DNA of 64,000 bases from Vreelandella neptunia (GTDB taxonomy: Bacteria > Pseudomonadota > Gammaproteobacteria > Pseudomonadales > Halomonadaceae): positions 62,001 through 126,000 of the forward strand of contig NZ_JHQL01000002.1 in NCBI RefSeq assembly GCF_000712975.1, written 5' to 3'. The translations under genes were made by a program, and so were the position numbers. Below, piece by piece: positions 3,197-53,762 of the stretch (positions are counted from its first letter, which is position 1; every line of letters begins with the position of its first letter). The notes under the pieces are model-generated. The model was given only the letters and a program-made list of their open reading frames with translations. It was not told the origin of the DNA and did no database searches.

Positions 3197-5548
3197 TTAG
3201 AATGTTTGGCCCAGCGAGAACTGGAAGAACTGCGTATCGTCACCGCTCTCTTCGTTTAGCGGTTCTGCCACACTGAAGGTCAGCGGACCCACCGGTGTTA
3301 GCCACGACAGTCCAATGCCTACACTGTAGCGCAAGTCGCCCAGGTCGACCCCAGAGCTGCATTGCTGACGCCCAACATCTGCCTCCTGCACATCATAGCA
3401 AGAACTTAAGAAGGTATTACCTGCATCCAAAAAGAGGGAGGGTTGAATTGACCGCTTATCTTCCACAAACGGCATGGGGAAGAGCACTTCGGCAGAGCCT
3501 TCCACTAATACGTTGCCGCCCAATGTACGATCACGCCCCCCATCACGGGTAGGAGTTGTGCGTTGACCCAACGTGTTGGAGGTAAAGCCGCGCACTGAAC
3601 CTAAGCCACCGGCATAAAAGTTCTCATAAAACGGGTAAGGATCATTGCCACCAAGTGTATCGGCATATCCCAAATTTCCACTAAACTTCAGCGCCCAGGT
3701 CTGATCATCGTTAATTGGAAACAGCTGCTGTGCACGGGCGCGAACCTTGTAGTACTCGGCATCGCTGCCCGGCACACCTGTTTCTAGTGATAGACGTTGA
3801 TAATTGCCTGCTGTCGGCATAATGCCGCGATTTAAATTATTACGCGTCCAGCTCGCCGTTAATTTAAGGCTTTGCGCATTATCGCCTTGATCGTCGACAT
3901 AACGAATAATTTCTGAAGCAGAATCGTTGTAGGTTTTAACCGTCAGCTCTTCAAGGCTAGCACCAAAATTCAGGCGAGAAAGTTCACTAATCGGATAACC
4001 AAAGTTAATGCCGGCACCATAAGCGTCCGTAGAGAACGTAGAGATATCGGAATCGCCGTAATCGGTTTCGCGGTAAAAAAGATTATATCCGCGCGAAATA
4101 CCATCTAATGTCCAGTAGGGGTCGGTAAAGGCAAAATTAACGCTGGTAAACGTATCACTACGTTGCGCGCCCACATTAACGCGGTTACCGGTGCCCAGAA
4201 AGTTATTTTGGGCCAGCCCAACGCCATAAATGACACCTGCGCTTTGTGAGAAGCCGACACTGGCAGAGACAGAACCGGATGGCTGCTCCTCAACGTTATA
4301 CGTTACGTCTAGCAAATCAGGCTGACCAGGGACTGGCTGGGTGCTGACCTCAACTTGACTAAAGAAGCCGAGACGCTCCAGGCGCTGGCGTGACTGGGTA
4401 ATCGATTCAGTTGATGCAGGAGCGCCTTCTAACTGAATCATTTCACGACGCAGCACTTCATCTTGCGTTGTGGTGTTACCGTAGAATTCAATACGGCGCA
4501 CGTAGGTGCGCTGACCAGGATCCACGGCAATGACGATATCAACGGTTTCACCATCGTCGGATAGCTCAGGAATGCCTTGTACGTCAGCAAATGCAAATCC
4601 CTCTGCGCCAAGGCGTTGGCGAAGCGCTTCAGTCGACGCATTTACTTCGCCGCGCGAAAAGGTGTCACCCCTTTCAATTTCAAGTAATTCGCGCGCTTCG
4701 TTTTCGTTAATTTGCAGGTCACCGGCAAAACGAATATCGCCGATTTGGAACTGGTTGCCTTCATCAATGTTTAAAGTGATGAAAATTTCAGATTTTTCAG
4801 GACCAATCGATACTTGCGTTGAAGTAACATCAAAATTAACGTAACCACGATCAAGGTAGAAAGAGCGTAAGCGCTCAATATCACCCGCCAGAGCTTCGCG
4901 GGAGTACTCGTCGCTGGAGAACCAGCCAAAAATACGCCCTGGGCGGTCATTTAATTCAAATACGTCACGCAGCGTATCGTCGTCGAATGCTTCATTACCA
5001 ACAATATTAATTTGCCGGATTTTAGCAACTTCGCCTTCATTGACATTGATATTAACCTGAACACGGCCTTCATCAATTTCATCAACTTCTACGTCAATAC
5101 TTGCGCTATAGCGCCCTTGAGCTTGATAAACACCTTCAAGTTCACGCTGAATCTCTTCTAGCGTGGAAAGCTGCAGCACCTGTCCTTCAGAAAGGCCTGA
5201 TTCGCGCAGACCATTGCGCAAATCCTCATCAGAAATTTGCTGATTCCCTTCGATATTCAAGCGCGCAATGGTCGGTCGCTCAACGACTTGGATGACCAGC
5301 ACGTCGCCCTCGCGCGCAAGAGAAACGTCTTCAAACAAACCTGTAGCAAACAGATCCCTGGCCGCGGCAGCCAGCTGCTGTTCGCTAACGCGGTCATTGG
5401 CATTGACGGGAAACGCATTAAAGACCGAGGCGGCAGATACCCGCTGCAGTCCCTCCACACGAATGTCGGAAACATCAAAGGATTGTGCTTGGGCACTGCT
5501 GGTACCTATCAGCAACAGTGCCGCCATTCCAAGGGTCTTGATTTTCAT
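3197..5548 (-). CDS. bamA: Outer membrane protein assembly factor BamA
   Basis: Central subunit of the beta-barrel assembly machine in the outer membrane. 783 residues: signal peptide (cleavage after SSAQA, about 21), five POTRA domains (about 24-430, first one beginning FDVSDIRVEGLQRVS), then a 16-strand barrel. The conserved loop-6 motif VRGF occurs in GSVRGFTSNTLG. The chain ends in Phe, as barrel proteins recognised by Bam do. The DPYWTLDG segment is typical for the barrel start. Neighbours rseP upstream and skp downstream fit the conserved cluster. Confidence 0.98.
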   Translation of the reverse strand: MKIKTLGMAALLLIGTSSAQAQSFDVSDIRVEGLQRVSAASVFNAFPVNANDRVSEQQLAAAARDLFATGLFEDVSLAREGDVLVIQVVERPTIARLNIEGNQQISDEDLRNGLRESGLSEGQVLQLSTLEEIQRELEGVYQAQGRYSASIDVEVDEIDEGRVQVNINVNEGEVAKIRQINIVGNEAFDDDTLRDVFELNDRPGRIFGWFSSDEYSREALAGDIERLRSFYLDRGYVNFDVTSTQVSIGPEKSEIFITLNIDEGNQFQIGDIRFAGDLQINENEARELLEIERGDTFSRGEVNASTEALRQRLGAEGFAFADVQGIPELSDDGETVDIVIAVDPGQRTYVRRIEFYGNTTTQDEVLRREMIQLEGAPASTESITQSRQRLERLGFFSQVEVSTQPVPGQPDLLDVTYNVEEQPSGSVSASVGFSQSAGVIYGVGLAQNNFLGTGNRVNVGAQRSDTFTSVNFAFTDPYWTLDGISRGYNLFYRETDYGDSDISTFSTDAYGAGINFGYPISELSRLNFGASLEELTVKTYNDSASEIIRYVDDQGDNAQSLKLTASWTRNNLNRGIMPTAGNYQRLSLETGVPGSDAEYYKVRARAQQLFPINDDQTWALKFSGNLGYADTLGGNDPYPFYENFYAGGLGSVRGFTSNTLGQRTTPTRDGGRDRTLGGNVLVEGSAEVLFPMPFVEDKRSIQPSLFLDAGNTFLSSCYDVQEADVGRQQCSSGVDLGDLRYSVGIGLSWLTPVGPLTFSVAEPLNEESGDDTQFFQFSLGQTF

Positions 5549-5648
5549 GCAGTCAGTTCGCTCGCGTTGGTCTGCCTATCATTCCAGATAGGCACCATAT
5601 ACATTTGTGCAGGCAGATGACAAGGCATCCAGCGCCCTACACGCGTCA

Positions 5649-7007
5649 TTACCACAGGCGCATCAGATCAAAATAGAGAGCCGTCAACATTAGGGTGCCT
5701 ACCATGGCAAGCCCTATACGCAACCCTACCGCTTGCGTTTGCTCAGAGACCGGCCGCCCACGCACAACCTCTATAAAGTAATAAAGTAGATGCCCGCCAT
5801 CGAGCACAGGTATCGGTAGTAAGTTCAGCACTCCTAGACTGATGGAAAGATAGGCTAAGAAGCCTATAAATACTTCCATACCTGCCCGGGCAGAATCACC
5901 GGAAATCTGTGCAATAGTAATCGGGCCCGAAAGGTTCGACGGTGAAATAAGCCCTACCAACATTTTGCGAATAGCATCTACCGTTAGCAGCGTCATCTCA
6001 CCTGTACGTGATAGTGCTTGGCCAACAGCCTCGATAGGACCATAGCGAATTTCACGCTGTTGCTCCTCGGGCCAAGATACCTGTTGCGCCCCGGCTCCAA
6101 TGTAACCAACCTCGCTGCCACTCTCCAGCGTATTACGGGCTGGCGTTAAAGAAAGACTAGACTGTTCGTTGCCACGCTGATAACCAACGTCTAAGGTTTG
6201 ACCCGCATTCTCTCGAATAACGGAAACAAACTGCATCCAGTCGTCAATTGGCTCGCCATTTAGCGACACAATACGGTCGCCCACGCGAAGACCCGCTTGA
6301 GAAGCCGGCTGCCCCTCTACTACTTGGCCTAGCACTGCGGGAACGTTCGGACGCCATGGCGTAATTCCCAAGCTTTGTAGCGGTTGAGGCGGATCCTGAC
6401 GGACCATATAGTCGCTCACGGGAAGCTGGTAAACCCGAGCAGCATTAGACCCTTCTGGCTGCGCCTCAAGTATTAAGTCGCCATCGAATCCGATCATAGA
6501 GACAAGCTTTAAATTAATCTCTTCCCAGGAGCGCATGGCATCTCCCTGGACCGAGGTAATTTCAGCGCCATGAGTAAGGCCTGCCTCTGCCGCCGGGGAG
6601 TTAGGCGTAACGTCGCCAACGACAGGAATCACCGTTGTAGTACCAGCAACAAACAGTGCCCAATAGGCAACTATCGCAAGTAAAAAGTTAGCAATCGGCC
6701 CCGCGGCAACAATTGCAATACGCTGCCACACGGTTTTGCGGTTAAATGCTTGGTCTAATTGCTCATCAGGTACAGGTGCTTCGCGCTCGTCCAGCATCTT
6801 TACATAGCCACCCAGGGGGATAGCCGCTACTGCAAACTCGGTACCATGGCGATCAACTGTCGACCAGAGGGGTTTACCAAAACCAACAGAAAAACGCAGT
6901 ACCTTGACACCACAGCGTCGCGCCACCCAGAAATGACCAAACTCGTGGAAGGTTACCAACAACCCAAGCACCACGATCACCGCTAATATGTTCTGTATCA
7001 GGCCCAC
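5649..7007 (-). CDS. rseP: Site-2 intramembrane zinc protease RseP
   Basis: Cleaves the anti-sigma factor RseA within the membrane to release sigma-E during envelope stress, and clears signal peptide remnants. 452 residues, close to the E. coli length. The zinc motif HEFGH (His21, Glu22, His25) lies in the first membrane helix. Two PDZ domains lie in the periplasmic region (about 125-310). The second metal-binding motif is in NLLPIPVLDGGHLLYY near the C-terminus, and membrane helices occur around 100-120, 380-400 and 430-450. Lies between dxr and bamA, linking it to outer-membrane biogenesis. Confidence 0.97.
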   Translation of the reverse strand: MGLIQNILAVIVVLGLLVTFHEFGHFWVARRCGVKVLRFSVGFGKPLWSTVDRHGTEFAVAAIPLGGYVKMLDEREAPVPDEQLDQAFNRKTVWQRIAIVAAGPIANFLLAIVAYWALFVAGTTTVIPVVGDVTPNSPAAEAGLTHGAEITSVQGDAMRSWEEINLKLVSMIGFDGDLILEAQPEGSNAARVYQLPVSDYMVRQDPPQPLQSLGITPWRPNVPAVLGQVVEGQPASQAGLRVGDRIVSLNGEPIDDWMQFVSVIRENAGQTLDVGYQRGNEQSSLSLTPARNTLESGSEVGYIGAGAQQVSWPEEQQREIRYGPIEAVGQALSRTGEMTLLTVDAIRKMLVGLISPSNLSGPITIAQISGDSARAGMEVFIGFLAYLSISLGVLNLLPIPVLDGGHLLYYFIEVVRGRPVSEQTQAVGLRIGLAMVGTLMLTALYFDLMRLW

Positions 7008-13240: not shown

Positions 13241-13371
13241 GATAAAACTCCTGAAACTCGGGTTAGGCCTCCACGCACCCCATGGATCCGACCAGTGGCG
13301 TCGTTACACGTCGCCAGCGGCACCCGGGACCATGTGCCGGTGCATGTGTGTTTTCAAGGCTTGCTGTTTAA

Positions 13372-35684: not shown

Positions 35685-35950
35685 AGTCAAACCACTTTGT
35701 CAGTTGTTATGTTTTATTCAACAGTCACTTCAACATAGCGTGGCTTGTTTTATTTTCCAATAGCAAAATAGAATTTTTATGAAAAAACACCACAATTATC
35801 TGATAAACAAGCAATTAAAAAATAAAATTAACAATTCCTAAATTAAAACCACTATTTTTTGTTATTAAATAATTGACACGGACGACTGTCGACGCAAGGA
35901 TACTGTTAGCAGAAACACAACTAAAACGGCATAAAAATAAGGTACAACGT
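35685..35950. promoter_or_regulatory. AT-rich divergent promoter region between puuD and puuA
   Basis: 266 bp, markedly richer in A/T than the flanking genes, serving both directions. A perfect -35 TTGACA at 35874-35879 faces puuA, with GATACT 20 bp later or AAGGAT 17 bp later as imperfect -10 boxes. I saw no convincing inverted repeat. It is the likely place for PuuR-type control of both operons. Confidence 0.4.
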
Positions 35951-37339
35951 ATGTCCTCTGCCAATAATTCAGACGTTCAAAACGTAGCCTCGGACTTTCT
36001 TGACAGTCACCCAGACATCACCAGCATTGACCTGTTAATCAGTGATCTTAACGGCGTTATTCGTGGTAAACGCATTCCTAGCGACAACCTTGGCAAAGTG
36101 TTTGAAAAAGGCATTTATTTGCCTGCTTCGGTATTTGCGTTGGACATCAATGGCAACACCGTGGAAGAGACAGGCCTGGGGCTTTCCAGCGGCGACGGCG
36201 ACCGCGTATGTCGCGCCATTCCCGGCACGCTCAACCCGGTCACCTGGATGAATAACAACCAGTATGGCCAGCTATTAATGACCATGGAGGAGATGGATGG
36301 CTCGCCGTTTTTTGCTGATCCACGCCAGATTCTCCGGCGCATTCTTGAGCAATTCTCCGACCGAGGATTGACCCCCGTTGTTGCTCTCGAGCTAGAGTTT
36401 TATCTGGTTGATCGTTTACGCGACGAAGAAAACTTGATTCAGCCACCGCAGTCTCCTTGCAGCGGCGAGCGCGCCACTCAAAGCCAGCTTTATTCGGTGT
36501 TGGAGTTAGACGAGTATGCTGAATTTATCAATGACTTGCAGAGTGCCGCCCAGGCGCAAGGCTTGCCGCTGGATACTGTATTAAAAGAGTGTGCACCCGG
36601 CCAGTTTGAAGCCAACCTGATTCACACAGATGATGCGTTAAGCGCCTGCGACCACTCGGTACTACTCAAACGACTGATCAAAGGCGTTGCATTAAAGCAC
36701 GGCTTTGAAGCTACTTTTATGGCCAAGCCTTACGGCTTAGAAGCGGGTAGCGGCACCCATGTTCACGTCAGCCTGGTAGATAGCAACGGACATAATATCT
36801 TTGCCGAAAACGGCGACGAACCGCTGGAGAGCTCCGCACTGCAACACGCGGTAGGAGGGCTGCTGGAACTGATGCCAGACTCCATGGCACTGCTGGCCCC
36901 CAACCTCAATTCGTTCCGCCGTTTTCAGGAAGGACTCTATGTGCCCATGGCACCTACCTGGGGGTACGACAACCGCTCTGTGGCAATACGCGTCCCCGCA
37001 GGTCCTAAAGAAGCGCGGCGCATAGAACACCGCGTGGCGGGTGCCGATGTTAATCCCTATCTGTTACTGGCCACCGTGCTAGCCTCTATTCACCATGGCC
37101 TAACTCAACAGATTGCACCTGCGGAGCCAATCATCGGCAACGCCTATGACCAAGTCGCGCCTCAGCTGACTAACAGCTGGACACAAGCACTACACCTGTT
37201 GAATAACAACCGCGTACTTGGCGAACAGCTTGGCGAAGACTTTATTGAAGTGTTCATTGCCAACCGCCAAGCAGAGCGCGCCGAAACCATGCGCGAAGTT
37301 AGCGCCATGGAGTATGACTGGTACTTACGACACGTATGA
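35951..37339 (+). CDS. puuA: Gamma-glutamylputrescine synthetase PuuA
   Basis: Glutamine-synthetase-fold ligase joining glutamate to putrescine with ATP, the first step of the gamma-glutamylated route. About 462 residues. GS catalytic motifs are KECAPGQFEANLIHTDDAL, AKPYGLEAGSGTHVHVSL, NSFRRFQEGLYVPMAPTWGY and IEHRVAGADVNPYL. The N-terminal DLLISDLNGVIRGKRIPSDN is the PuuA-type version of the beta-grasp domain. The open frame begins at a TTG (35873), but the ATG at 35951 is preceded by AAGGT at proper spacing. Confidence 0.93.
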   Translation: MSSANNSDVQNVASDFLDSHPDITSIDLLISDLNGVIRGKRIPSDNLGKVFEKGIYLPASVFALDINGNTVEETGLGLSSGDGDRVCRAIPGTLNPVTWMNNNQYGQLLMTMEEMDGSPFFADPRQILRRILEQFSDRGLTPVVALELEFYLVDRLRDEENLIQPPQSPCSGERATQSQLYSVLELDEYAEFINDLQSAAQAQGLPLDTVLKECAPGQFEANLIHTDDALSACDHSVLLKRLIKGVALKHGFEATFMAKPYGLEAGSGTHVHVSLVDSNGHNIFAENGDEPLESSALQHAVGGLLELMPDSMALLAPNLNSFRRFQEGLYVPMAPTWGYDNRSVAIRVPAGPKEARRIEHRVAGADVNPYLLLATVLASIHHGLTQQIAPAEPIIGNAYDQVAPQLTNSWTQALHLLNNNRVLGEQLGEDFIEVFIANRQAERAETMREVSAMEYDWYLRHV

Positions 37340-37555: not shown

Positions 37556-38848
37556 CTAAACTGCCAGCCGGTCACGCATGGCGTAGAACCACGCCCCCAT
37601 CGCGGAAAGCGGGACACGTAACAACCGCCCACCAGGCATTGGTAAGTGGGAAATTTGTGCAAAAGCTTCAAAGCGCGTCTCTTCACCGCTGATCGTTTCT
37701 GCCACTAACTTGCCAGCCAGATGAGAGCACGTTACCCCGTGACCAGAGTACCCCTGGGCGTAGTAAACGTTGCTATTAATGCGGCCGAACTGCGGCAGGC
37801 GATTAAGTGTCAGCAAAAAGTTACCACTCCAGGCGTAATCGACGCGGACATCGCCAAGTTCTGGAAAGGTAGACAGCATTTTCGGCCGAATAGCGGCCTC
37901 AATACTAGCGGACGCCTGCCCGCCATAGTTCACCCCGCCGCCATACAGCAAGCGGTTATCGGCGGTCAGGCGATAGTAATCCAAGAGGTAATTGCAATCC
38001 TCTACCGCTTTATCGTTAGGCAGTAACCGTGCAGCTAGCGCTTCAGGCAGCGGCTCAGTGGTAATGATCTGGGTGCCACACGGCATCGCTTTGCTTTCCA
38101 GCTTGGGTAGCAACCCTTGCAAATAAGCATTGCCAGCCATGACAACTCGTTGAGCGGTCACGCGGCCTTTGGGCGTATGCAGCGTTACCGGCTCACCGTG
38201 CTCCACGCGCGTCACGGGGGAGTGTTCAAAAACCTTGCCACCCAACGACTCCAACGCTGCTGCCTGCCCCAGCACTAAGTTGAGCGGATGCAGGTGTCCA
38301 CCAGAATGATCCACCAACGCTCCCACATAACGGTCGCTGCCTATTTCTCGTTTGACCTCTTCACCTTCCAACAGCTCCAGTTGCTGATGGCCGTAACGCT
38401 CCCACAAGGCTTTTTGCTCTTTCAGGCCTTCCCACTGTTTCTTGTTACAGGCGGCAAACAAATTGCCTTCTTTTAGGTCGCAGTTGATCTGATACTTTTC
38501 AATGCGCTGACGGATAATCTGGTTTCCCTCAAAGGCCATCGCACCCAGCGCTCGGGCAGTTTCAGCGCCGTTTTGTTTCTCGATAACATCCATATCACGG
38601 CTATAGCTGTTAACGATCTGGCCACCGTTGCGCCCAGACGCCCCAAAGCCAATCGCCACGCTTTCCAGCACCACTACACGGTGGCCGCGCTCTGCCAAAT
38701 GTAGAGCTGCAGAAACACCCGTAAACCCAGCCCCGACGACGCAGACATCACACTCAATGTCCCCTTCCAGCATAGGCCTTTGAGAAGTGGAGTTTGACGA
38801 TGCCGCGTAGTAAGACGCTACATGACCAGAAGACGCTTGAGGTTGCAT
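37556..38848 (-). CDS. puuB: Gamma-glutamylputrescine oxidoreductase PuuB
   Basis: FAD-dependent DAO-family enzyme oxidising gamma-glutamylputrescine to the aldehyde used by PuuC. 430 residues. The FAD dinucleotide motif is in DVCVVGAGFTGVSAALHLAE (about 35-54), followed by GFGASGRNGGQIVNSYSRD, and NVYYAQGYSGHGVTCSHLAG near the C-terminus, all PuuB/OrdL features. An AAGGAAGG ribosome site precedes the ATG. Convergent with puuA. A free-putrescine or other amine oxidase is possible, but the neighbours favour PuuB. Confidence 0.92.
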   Translation of the reverse strand: MQPQASSGHVASYYAASSNSTSQRPMLEGDIECDVCVVGAGFTGVSAALHLAERGHRVVVLESVAIGFGASGRNGGQIVNSYSRDMDVIEKQNGAETARALGAMAFEGNQIIRQRIEKYQINCDLKEGNLFAACNKKQWEGLKEQKALWERYGHQQLELLEGEEVKREIGSDRYVGALVDHSGGHLHPLNLVLGQAAALESLGGKVFEHSPVTRVEHGEPVTLHTPKGRVTAQRVVMAGNAYLQGLLPKLESKAMPCGTQIITTEPLPEALAARLLPNDKAVEDCNYLLDYYRLTADNRLLYGGGVNYGGQASASIEAAIRPKMLSTFPELGDVRVDYAWSGNFLLTLNRLPQFGRINSNVYYAQGYSGHGVTCSHLAGKLVAETISGEETRFEAFAQISHLPMPGGRLLRVPLSAMGAWFYAMRDRLAV

Positions 38849-50746: not shown

Positions 50747-50836
50747 TCCCTTTCGCGCCTCATCCTTTCACGCCCTATCCTTTCACGCCCTATCCTTTCA
50801 CGCCCTACCCTTTTAAACCCTATCCTTTTAAACCCT
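50747..50836. repeat. Six degenerate tandem 15-bp repeats upstream of the glycine riboswitch
   Basis: Three identical ATCCTTTCACGCCCT units (50762-50806), flanked by TCCCTTTCGCGCCTC before and ACCCTTTTAAACCCT and ATCCTTTTAAACCCT after. A minus-strand frame through it would encode repeated GRERI, but it shows no other gene features. Confidence 0.92.
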
Positions 50837-50910
50837 ATGCTTATTACGTCCACCCTTAAGACGTTTACCCTATTTCACTTTCACGGCAAACACGTTAAAA
50901 CGTCAACAAT

Positions 50911-51102
50911 GCAGTAGCGGGAGAGACTGGTGCCTGCCACCAGCGCCGAAGGAGCAACGACCCCGGAAACTCTCAGGCCAACGGACCGCTACTGCCTATT
51001 CAAAAATACGTTCCGAAGAGCGGTTGATGACTGCGTCACTCAGCCCACCGAAGGAGCAAGCGCCTCAATTGATGCGTGAATCTCTCAGGTTCCATGACGG
51101 AA
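50911..51102 (+). ncRNA. Tandem glycine riboswitch (two gcvT-type aptamers)
   Basis: Aptamer 1 spans 50911-50995, closed by a perfect 10-bp P1 (GCAGTAGCGG/CCGCTACTGC), with GGGAGAGACTGG, CGCCGAAGGAGCAA and GAAACTCTCAGGC in the conserved order. Aptamer 2 spans about 51011-51102, closed by TTCCG/CGGAA, with CACCGAAGGAGCAAGC, GAATCTCTCAGGT and ATGACGG. A 15-nt linker joins them. The known family binds glycine, usually turning on glycine use. It ends 65 bp before the ATG of a DadA-like dehydrogenase, its only downstream gene on this strand. Confidence 0.95.
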
Positions 51103-51167
51103 GGGGTACGCCTAGCCATTTGTGTGCTGGGGGTATCGCCCGACGCTCATACAATCTGGAGAGTATC

Positions 51168-52409
51168 ATGCAACGCATTGCTGTTATTGGCGGTGGAATC
51201 ACCGGTATTACAAGCGCTTATGCCCTAGCAAAGCGTGGTTTTGACGTCACTGTTTTTGAAAAACACCGCTATGCGGCAATGGAAACCTCCTTTGCCAACG
51301 GCGGGCAGCTCTCAGCGTCGAATGCAGAAGTGTGGAACCACTGGCCGACAGTCATTAAAGGCCTGCGCTGGATGCTGAAAAACGACGCACCGCTGCTAGT
51401 TAACCCCCGCCCTAGCTGGCATAAACTCAGCTGGTTCGCCGAATTTATCGCCGCTATCCCCCGTTATGCTGACAACACCACAGAAACTACTCGGTTAGCC
51501 ATTGCTGCCCGAGAACATCTCTTTCAGTGGGCGAAAGACGAGCAGATTGAGTTCGATCTTAAGCAACAGGGCATTTTGCACATCTACCGTGACAAAGCCG
51601 GTTTTGATCACGCAGCGCGGGTATCCCAGCTGCTAGCGAAAGGTGGCCTTGAGCGACGTGCAGTGACCCCAGACGAAATGCGCGCCATCGAGCCTACACT
51701 TGCGGGCAGCTACCATGGCGGTTTCTATACCGAAAGCGACGCCACTGGCGATATCCACAAGTACACCAATGGCTTGGCACGCGCTGCAGCCAAGCGCGGC
51801 GTACAGCTGAATTACGGCCACCATATTAATGATATCGGCGCAGACGAGAACGGGGCATGGGTGAGTGCTACGGTCGACAATGAAACAACACGCCAGAGCT
51901 TCGATAGCGTGGTGGTTTGCGCAGGTACTGGCAGCCGCGCCATTGCCGCTAAACTTGGCGACCGGGTCAATATCTATCCAGTAAAGGGCTATTCTATTAC
52001 CGTGCAGCTAGATGACGAAGCTTCTCAGCAAGCTGCGCCAACGGTCAGCCTGCTAGATGATGAAACCAAGTTGGTGACTAGCCGACTAGGAAATGACCGC
52101 TTCCGCGTGGCGGGTACCGCAGAGTTTAACGGCGCGAATCGCGATATACGCAATGACCGTATTCAGCCGCTGGTTCGCTGGGTAGAAGAGTGCTTCCCAG
52201 GTGTGAGCACCCAGCGTGTCGTGCCCTGGGCAGGCCTACGCCCGATGCTACCTAATATGCTACCCAAGGTTGGGCCTGGCCGCTTACCCACGGTGTTCTA
52301 TAACACCGGACACGGCCATTTAGGCTGGACACTTTCTGCGATTACCGCCGAAATGCTGGCAGATGCAGTGGATACTTCTCAAGCAGCTTCACTCGCCGCT
52401 ACGCGTTAA
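51168..52409 (+). CDS. DadA-like FAD-dependent D-amino acid dehydrogenase / glycine oxidase family
   Basis: 413 residues. FAD motif IAVIGGGITGITSAYALAKR at residues 4-23, followed by ETSFANGGQLSASNAEVWN, GGFYTESDATGDIHKYTNGL, PVKGYSITV and NTGHGHLGWTLSAITAEMLA, all DadA features. DadA oxidises D-amino acids to 2-oxo acids with quinone as acceptor. The glycine riboswitch directly upstream suggests glycine, or a compound made from or to it, is the physiological signal and perhaps the substrate. A longer frame runs back through the riboswitch to 51024, but CTGGAGAG lies before the ATG at 51168. It forms a single-gene unit. Confidence 0.9.
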   Translation: MQRIAVIGGGITGITSAYALAKRGFDVTVFEKHRYAAMETSFANGGQLSASNAEVWNHWPTVIKGLRWMLKNDAPLLVNPRPSWHKLSWFAEFIAAIPRYADNTTETTRLAIAAREHLFQWAKDEQIEFDLKQQGILHIYRDKAGFDHAARVSQLLAKGGLERRAVTPDEMRAIEPTLAGSYHGGFYTESDATGDIHKYTNGLARAAAKRGVQLNYGHHINDIGADENGAWVSATVDNETTRQSFDSVVVCAGTGSRAIAAKLGDRVNIYPVKGYSITVQLDDEASQQAAPTVSLLDDETKLVTSRLGNDRFRVAGTAEFNGANRDIRNDRIQPLVRWVEECFPGVSTQRVVPWAGLRPMLPNMLPKVGPGRLPTVFYNTGHGHLGWTLSAITAEMLADAVDTSQAASLAATR

Positions 52410-52589: not shown

Positions 52590-53492
52590 TTAATAGACTA
52601 CCGCATCTCGCCCTTTTTCTTTCGCTTGATAAAGGGCGTTATCCGCCCGTTTCATCACGCTCTGCTGGGATTCATCAGGCGTTACTTCAACTACACCTAA
52701 GCTAACTGTCACACTACCGATCGAGGGAAATTGCGCTTTTCGTATGCAGCAGCGTATTTTATCGGCCAACTTTACCGCCTGTTTTAGCGATGTTTCAGGG
52801 GCTAAAATCATAAACTCTTCACCACCCCAACGTGCGCAGTAATCGGCAGCGCGTAAGTTATCTTCTAACAGTTTGGCAAGCGCAGCCAAGACTTGATCAC
52901 CAACGTCATGGCCCTGGTTATCATTAATTAACTTGAAATGGTCGATATCAAGCATGATTAGCGAAAAAGGGCGCACATAACGATTAAAACGCCCTATTTC
53001 ATGCTTTAGCAAATAGTCAAAACGTGACCGATTAATTAGTCCGGTTAACATATCCGTCGTTGCTAAGCGTTTTAGCTCGGCTTCTTTCTCAACACGCTTA
53101 GAAATATCACGCTGAACAAGTATTAAGACATTATCAGTATAACCAGGCACATTCATGGCGGTGATGCGCCATTCAATAACACTGCCCCCCGCCACATTGG
53201 GCGTGCGTTTGCCATCGTCAAGACCTGATATCGAACAGCCTACGCTTAATTCGCCACTATCTAATGCATTATGCAGTCGGCTAAGAAGCCGCTGATTTTT
53301 GGCTTCGTGATGAACAATTTTTGGAGCTGAGCCAAGCCATTGGTGACGACTTCCTCCCCAAAACTGAGCGTACTCGTCACTCACATCCAAAATGCGGATA
53401 CCGTCGCCATTGGGTTGTCGGCTTAACACGGCAGTCGCTTGGCTACTTGGTTCGCTAATTGCAAGCAGCACGTTCTTCCCTGTTTCCAACAT
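52590..53492 (-). CDS. Diguanylate cyclase with PAS-like N-terminus
   Basis: About 300 residues. The N-terminal half (about 5-130) looks like a PAS sensor (ILDVSDEYAQFWGGSRHQWL; VIEWRITAMNVPGYTDNVLI), then a short linker and a GGDEF domain (about 140-300): TTDMLTGLINRSRFDYLL, LDIDHFKLINDNQGHDVGD, RWGGEEFMIL. GGEEF is an active-site form, so it should make cyclic di-GMP. I saw no RxxD inhibitory site immediately upstream. A TTG at 53507 is in frame; GGAAGA before the ATG at 53492 favours the latter. Confidence 0.9.
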   Translation of the reverse strand: MLETGKNVLLAISEPSSQATAVLSRQPNGDGIRILDVSDEYAQFWGGSRHQWLGSAPKIVHHEAKNQRLLSRLHNALDSGELSVGCSISGLDDGKRTPNVAGGSVIEWRITAMNVPGYTDNVLILVQRDISKRVEKEAELKRLATTDMLTGLINRSRFDYLLKHEIGRFNRYVRPFSLIMLDIDHFKLINDNQGHDVGDQVLAALAKLLEDNLRAADYCARWGGEEFMILAPETSLKQAVKLADKIRCCIRKAQFPSIGSVTVSLGVVEVTPDESQQSVMKRADNALYQAKEKGRDAVVY

Positions 53493-53762
53493 AATCGTTT
53501 CTTCCAATGAATGTTAGCGTGGGGCTGTCTCATCCCAGAAACGAGCCGTTTACCCACAGCCACAGCCAAAAAAGCACTGAGATAAATAAAAAACGACACC
53601 AGCGTCGCTAAGCGTAGCTCATACCCAGCGGTTTGCGCGAAAGTCGCTCGTTTAGCCATCTTTCGTCACTCATTGTAATAGTGGCGTTTTACTTCACTTC
53701 GTTACTCGATGGCTTTCGACATGCCTCAAAGCAACAGCCTCAACATACCAACTGCACGATGC

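Follow-up and report, generated by a model that had tools for sequence, protein, structure and literature searches.

The tandem glycine riboswitch of the Bacillus subtilis gcvT leader is, from the accessible part of PMC5666159, the subject of that study. In the available text of Kazanov et al. 2007 (PMC2211319), the targets of glycine riboswitches are gcvT, glcB, serC and COG4198 genes, and the flavoenzyme family discussed here, NF009074, is not among them. Sun et al. 2013 (PMC3766115), as far as its main text is accessible, covers a Ralstonia lineage and places twelve orthologues of glycine metabolism under a glycine riboswitch. We found no paper on the pairing of a glycine riboswitch with this enzyme, and the supplementary list of PMC3766115 may already catalogue it. 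With regard to mechanism, the accessible portion of PMC9495176 describes tandem glycine ON switches that act on transcription termination and OFF switches that prevent translation.

On the enzyme side, dadA6 of Cupriavidus necator is called a glycine oxidase in the available text of PMC11879842, where it was deleted in engineered C. necator H16 as a possible glycine sink. According to the same text, the deletion brought the engineered strain no further gain in growth or yield, a result that neither helps nor harms the glycine reading developed below.

Here we describe a tandem glycine riboswitch placed before a single flavoenzyme gene in Vreelandella neptunia (GCF_000712975.1, contig NZ_JHQL01000002.1, forward-strand positions 62,001-126,000). 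This 64-kb stretch is referred to as the window, and coordinates are counted from its first base unless another locus is named. Our overall explanation is glycine-induced translation of a glycine-oxidising flavoenzyme, to which we assign a probability of roughly 0.75; both aptamers, the gene and the conserved pairing are directly observed parts of it. The interest of the locus is the stable pairing of a known riboswitch class with a flavoenzyme family, together with the substrate prediction that results.

The riboswitch and its gene

When the entire window was scanned with cmscan at the gathering thresholds of Rfam, three matches appeared, two of them to the glycine riboswitch RF00504 (gathering score 32). 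The elements of the locus are as follows.

50908-50998 (+), glycine riboswitch aptamer 1 (RF00504), cmscan 74.2 bits, E 1.2e-13, model positions 1-94 of 94
51003-51110 (+), glycine riboswitch aptamer 2 (RF00504), cmscan 55.0 bits, E 1.4e-8, model positions 1-94 of 94
51168-52409 (+), gene for a 413-aa FAD-dependent amino-acid dehydrogenase of the NF009074/PRK12409 family, from its translation, profile scores and conservation in relatives

The first-pass annotation, made from the letters alone, had proposed two complete gcvT-type aptamers and an Infernal search with RF00504 as their check. That search returned two strong matches, adjacent and each spanning the full model, and with 74.2 and 55.0 bits against the threshold of 32 the pair qualifies as a tandem riboswitch. 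The limits first given, 50911-51170, need correction at both ends, since the start lies 3 bases within aptamer 1 and the end coincides with the final base of the start codon rather than with the end of aptamer 2. Beyond this pair, no RF00504 match was found in the entire 3.8-Mb genome. The RNA itself is a typical representative of an established riboswitch class, and from its sequence it is predicted to sense glycine in tandem.

The enzyme gene begins with ATG at 51168 and ends at 52409. A longer frame with a TTG start at 51024 was taken as spurious, as it passes through aptamer 2. The neighbouring ORF on the 3' side (52590-53507, diguanylate-cyclase-like) is on the other strand; therefore, the enzyme gene stands alone. 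It had been annotated as the lone downstream gene, and as neither a glycine-cleavage gene nor a symporter; both points hold, the product being an NF009074 flavoenzyme.

Two further elements of the window are recorded for completeness. The sole non-glycine Rfam match above gathering is a t44 RNA (RF00127) at 13262-13368 (-), with 68.1 bits. Upstream of the riboswitch, a 15-base unit CCTTTCACGCCCTAT is repeated in tandem at 50749-50842 (5.3 copies, 87% matches); among the leaders of seven relatives compared, a degenerate form of the array is present in the nearest one.

Conservation of the pairing

Counts across genomes, here and below, are not independent of kinship. In a family sample of 151 genomes, the glycine riboswitch is found in 24 and NF009074 above its cut-off in 30, with both present in 22. 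An enzyme homologue lies directly behind the riboswitch in 23 of the 24 riboswitch-positive genomes, G049 included, and in the 24th (G076) the tandem riboswitch precedes a PF03458 Gly_transporter gene (L053 6689-7528) instead of the enzyme. Eight of the 30 genomes with NF009074 above cut-off have no riboswitch (G002, G022, G026, G039, G042, G054, G065 and G086); their proteins are 58-76% identical to the window protein, that of G039 being aligned only from residue 46. Within the genus of the window, 17 of the 25 genomes listed have riboswitch and gene, and 8 have neither.

The G049 locus (L041, about 4865-5845) retains an intact riboswitch, and its enzyme gene is missing about 68 aa in mid-protein with both parts in one frame. 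It is either a decaying copy or an unusual one.

Among named genomes, at least 586 relatives were found, of which the best 80 were retained. These best 80 of at least 586 include Halomonas/Vreelandella, Marinobacter, Stutzerimonas, Cupriavidus and Comamonadaceae, and in 79 of them two aptamer cores lie just upstream of the gene, the sole exception without cores being a Limnohabitans MAG. When 18 of the best 80 were tested with Rfam models, 17 yielded an aptamer, and in 9 both exceeded gathering. At 12 loci labelled riboswitch-free, cmscan gave no aptamer. In a class sample of 370 genomes, NF009074 exceeds its cut-off in 10, and a riboswitch is adjacent in 7 of these 10. G368 and G534 (518 and 530 bits for NF009074) have no riboswitch; in G516 the gene lies at a contig end, no aptamer is listed for the genome, and a second, partial copy has its start but no aptamer upstream. 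Glycine aptamers as such occur in 159 of the 370 class genomes compared with 10 of 370 for the enzyme, so that a frequent sensor contrasts with a rare enzyme.

At 21 of the best 80 loci (of at least 586 relatives), up to two ORFs on each side revealed no conserved partner gene, the largest neighbour clusters holding 5 and 3 ORFs. A gene for the agcS symporter lies beside the enzyme gene in none of the 23 family stretches, and follows it in one of the best 80 loci, that of Polaromonas (487.9 bits). There, the agcS (Na+/alanine-type) gene is on the same strand, 3' of the enzyme gene (L133 5448-6806), and the two possibly form a glycine operon. In Cupriavidus neocaledonicus, a C4 antisense RNA match (RF01695, 52 bits) is found just 3' of the enzyme gene (L132 5502-5594).

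The Cupriavidus counterpart

The identity of dadA6 was checked with two published check primers, REV and FOR, across 60 Cupriavidus genomes at no more than one mismatch. The REV primer matches in 10 of the 60, and in nine of these ten the NF009074 gene follows about 1.2 kb downstream of it, with two aptamer cores in the intervening sequence; in the tenth (G191), the surrounding stretch examined holds neither the cores nor the gene. At 12 Cupriavidus loci, the 3.5 kb downstream contain no match to the FOR primer. This primer matches exactly in a single genome (G151), near the start of another contig, and is absent at up to one mismatch from the other 59.

From position 2143 onwards, this G151 contig corresponds to what immediately follows the gene in G171 (94%, 3859 bases), and the G151 tail after the enzyme gene matches the same place in G171 (88 bases, 97%). 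The FOR primer sits in the first 2.1 kb of the contig, a stretch missing from G171. Since contig and gene tail meet at the same G171 place, we infer a join across the contig break, by which the two primers most likely flank the riboswitch gene of G151. Judged by its location in these Cupriavidus relatives, the riboswitch gene is very probably the counterpart of C. necator dadA6.

The four Cupriavidus genomes examined for aptamers have four matches each, arranged as two tandem pairs. The second pair precedes gcvT in both of the two genomes checked.

Identity of the flavoenzyme

The window protein belongs to NF009074 (PRK12409), scoring 734.1 bits over positions 1-407 of 410, where the cut-off is 494; the NCBIfam name of this family is D-amino acid dehydrogenase. 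Its second-best NCBIfam family is DadA (PRK00711), where 347.3 bits fall under the cut-off of 383. It likewise stays under the cut-off of ThiO (TIGR02352), with 134.8 bits against 250.8, and the soxB sarcosine oxidase model gives just 38.5 bits. The Pfam DAO domain scores 247.9 bits.

An AlphaFold2 model was built from a 40-row alignment (mean pLDDT 82.9); row L130, which contains a stop codon, was left out of alignment A1. The closest solved structure is the glycine oxidase 4ysh_B (Z 35.9, 23% identity). Just behind it come CmiS2, L-proline dehydrogenase, sarcosine oxidases and other glycine oxidases, and because CmiS2, proline dehydrogenase and sarcosine oxidases nearly match 4ysh, the fold alone cannot pick the substrate. 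Nor can glycine specificity be read from the active site, because the GHYRNG motif of the solved glycine oxidase 7cyx is replaced by GHGHLGW, which is invariant across the 40 aligned rows.

One alternative takes the family name at face value: the protein would be a true D-amino acid dehydrogenase, acting for example on D-alanine or D-serine, and the riboswitch would report a general surplus of amino acids or cell-wall material. The second-best placing of DadA fits this reading, as do the GHGHLGW and PVKGYSIT segments, which resemble those of E. coli DadA. However, the enzyme misses the DadA cut-off, two glycine aptamer cores are kept at 79 of the best 80 loci of at least 586 relatives, and the dadA6 identification points to glycine. 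We therefore consider a D-amino acid substrate unlikely.

A second alternative reverses the logic of the switch. Here, the substrate would be an N-methylglycine (sarcosine) or a different amino acid from which glycine is formed, and the riboswitch would be an OFF switch through which the product represses its own production. Halophiles break down glycine betaine to sarcosine and then to glycine, and sarcosine oxidases and proline dehydrogenase are close to our model in fold (Z 30.9-34.1). Tandem glycine riboswitches occur as both ON and OFF switches, the latter being said to prevent translation (PMC9495176, accessible portion). Against this stand the 734.1 bits for NF009074 in comparison with 38.5 for soxB, the glycine oxidation named for dadA6, and the second tandem riboswitch before the glycine-consuming gcvT in two Cupriavidus genomes, which fits induced consumption. 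Oxidation of sarcosine under an OFF switch thus appears improbable.

Because the pairing is conserved and the Cupriavidus counterpart is very probably the glycine oxidase dadA6, glycine is the most likely substrate; we are rather confident that it is the physiological one, the activity of the window protein itself being putative. The first-pass annotation had called an enzyme acting on glycine or on something tied to it, namely N-methylglycine or a D-amino acid. The widespread pairing and the dadA6 link support the general call, and among the options offered glycine itself is favoured. The NF009074 flavoenzyme family is probably misnamed.

Metabolic setting

The genome of the window groups gcvP, gcvH, the agcS symporter gene and gcvT, and no riboswitch is found at this group. 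It also encodes a glyoxylate carboligase (1169 bits), which could allow assimilation of glyoxylate, and a separate ThiO (281 bits against 250.8), so that thiamine synthesis need not depend on the enzyme described here. No canonical DadA above cut-off is present in this genome, where the enzyme itself scores 347 bits.

We propose that glycine excess would be sensed by the tandem riboswitch, which would switch on translation of the single flavoenzyme. The latter would convert glycine to glyoxylate and ammonia and pass electrons onward from FAD. Surplus glycine could in this way be burnt beside, or instead of, the riboswitch-less glycine cleavage system, with the glyoxylate presumably entering through glyoxylate carboligase.

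Another FAD-dependent amino-acid oxidoreductase is encoded in the window at 37556-38848 (-). Its nearest family is L-pipecolate oxidase AmaA, at 228.7 bits far under the cut-off of 600, and it adjoins an ORF at 35873-37339 that was named glutamine-synthetase-like by eye.

Control of expression

The first-pass annotation found the expression platform between 51103 and 51160 not obvious. No intrinsic-terminator-like site is present on the + strand of the leader. Complementarity between the Shine-Dalgarno (SD) region and a strand of aptamer 2 leads us to propose a translational platform. The relevant elements are the following.

51082-51091 (+), 3' core strand of aptamer 2, CTCTCAGGTT, the proposed anti-SD strand, pairing with 51153-51163 in the unconstrained fold
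51105-51137 (+), hairpin between aptamer 2 and the ribosome-binding site, predicted in the aptamer-constrained fold, its core also in the free fold
51153-51163 (+), SD region, AATCTGGAGAG, 4 nt before the start codon and complementary to the 3' strand of aptamer 2

The arms of the 51105-51137 hairpin vary among relatives yet remain complementary, as read by eye from their leaders. Its candidacy as a terminator was rejected because no T run follows it. The 5' strand of the P1 helix of aptamer 2 was also dropped as an anti-SD strand, as most leaders gave it a pairing probability close to zero.

For the window leader folded freely, the probability of pairing between the SD region and the 3' strand of aptamer 2 is 0.78. 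Across leaders, the corresponding value is 0.69, compared with 0.51-0.62 when the tail of another lineage is attached. For 67 distinct leaders, the duplexes between the two strands average -10.92 kcal/mol compared with -9.47 +/- 0.24 kcal/mol after permutation (permuted minimum -10.11 in 200). Permutation of SD regions within groups attained the observed energy in 0 of 200 trials for the beta-type group (39 leaders), 1 of 200 for Marinobacter (18) and 6 of 200 for Halomonas (10). When the SD letters were shuffled, the numbers were 0 of 100, 0 of 100 and 21 of 100, respectively. Among beta-type relatives, the two sides also vary in a compensatory manner, CCAGAAC/GUUCUGG, CCAAGAC/GUCUUGG and CCAAAAC/GUUUUGG changing together.

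The contiguous-helix test, which is stricter, gave 6.58 bp in the beta-type group compared with 5.95 +/- 0.19 bp for swapped leaders (swapped maximum 6.67), and no excess for Halomonas or Marinobacter. When the aptamer is forced, the SD region becomes more open in 63 of 75 leaders and less so in 9; with the tail of another lineage, it is opened in 52, 57 and 61 of 75. Because the swapped-tail leaders behave almost alike, the SD-opening test was not used for polarity. Computed without tertiary contacts or ligand, the aptamer-constrained fold of the window leader falls short of the free fold in stability by about 17 kcal/mol. Two leaders were left out of the fold, swap and helix tests (L166, without a core, and L128, with a gene start placed late); three more without a recognisable SD were left out of the fold and swap test, and L110, L141 and L165 out of the helix test.

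These data suggest a platform in which, when glycine is absent, the 3' strand of aptamer 2 would pair with the SD region and block translation, and glycine binding would free the SD. The platform is probably translational, the case being weakest in the lineage to which the window belongs. As for translational control with ON polarity in particular, we see the odds as about even, because the helix excess is confined to the beta-type group, swapped leaders behave alike, and PMC9495176, in its accessible portion, ties translation to OFF switches.

Alternatively, the riboswitch might act at transcription through a Rho-dependent or unrecognised terminator, and the SD complementarity would be a by-product of a purine-rich SD and pyrimidine-rich aptamer strands. 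The similar folding of swapped-tail leaders, the helix excess in one group only, and the association of ON switches with transcription in the accessible part of PMC9495176 are consistent with this alternative. On the other hand, the leader shows no intrinsic-terminator-like site on its + strand, and the SD and aptamer-strand variants (CCAGAAC/GUUCUGG and others) change together. Control at transcription is thus a plausible but not a favoured account.

Distribution and transfer

A quick tree of 107 proteins unites 93 riboswitch rows in one clade with two others, namely the incomplete row of G039 and that of the Limnohabitans MAG; the SH-aLRT of this clade, 85, is not strong. The riboswitch label requires 4 changes on the tree compared with a shuffle mean of 12.5, with 0 of 500 shuffles as low, row L216 (G516) being labelled riboswitch-free although its upstream side is missing. 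The gammaproteobacterial Stutzerimonas and Nitrincola rows, the latter on a long branch, sit among beta rows, a placement suggestive of joint transfer of gene and sensor.

As a more speculative synthesis, which we hold only tentatively, the NF009074 enzymes of this clade might be misnamed, riboswitch-gated glycine dehydrogenases; enzyme and sensor would constitute a cassette that moves horizontally between beta- and gammaproteobacteria and serves as a self-contained glycine overflow valve, with the ligand-pocket strand of aptamer 2 as its anti-SD.

For a family loosely named D-amino acid dehydrogenase, the pairing yields a prediction open to experiment, namely that glycine is oxidised and directly controls its own oxidation, and the targets of glycine riboswitches would gain a glycine-consuming flavoenzyme. 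The leader would offer a natural glycine-responsive element. The pairing is also relevant to the reductive glycine pathway in C. necator, dadA6 having been removed there as a potential drain on glycine (PMC11879842, available text). If the platform is translational, the tandem leader would help to test the working of tandem glycine sensors.

Comparison with known systems

C. necator DadA6 is very probably the orthologue of the window protein, given the 70-74% identity of the Cupriavidus relatives and the placement of the REV check primer upstream of the riboswitch gene, with the FOR primer most likely on its other side; unlike our locus, dadA6 has no riboswitch mentioned for it in the accessible part of PMC11879842. 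The window protein has the same fold as ThiO glycine oxidase (TIGR02352), with Z 32.8-35.9 to solved glycine oxidases, and glycine as the likely substrate. However, it falls under the ThiO cut-off and is without GHYRNG, and its genome has a separate ThiO. DadA (PRK00711) is its second-best NCBIfam match, although the protein is below the 383-bit cut-off of that family. As in other tandem glycine riboswitches of the gcvT type (RF00504), two complete aptamers precede a glycine-tied gene in the window; in contrast to them, the pair would control a lone flavin dehydrogenase and not gcvT or a transporter, and the platform that we propose for it is translational.
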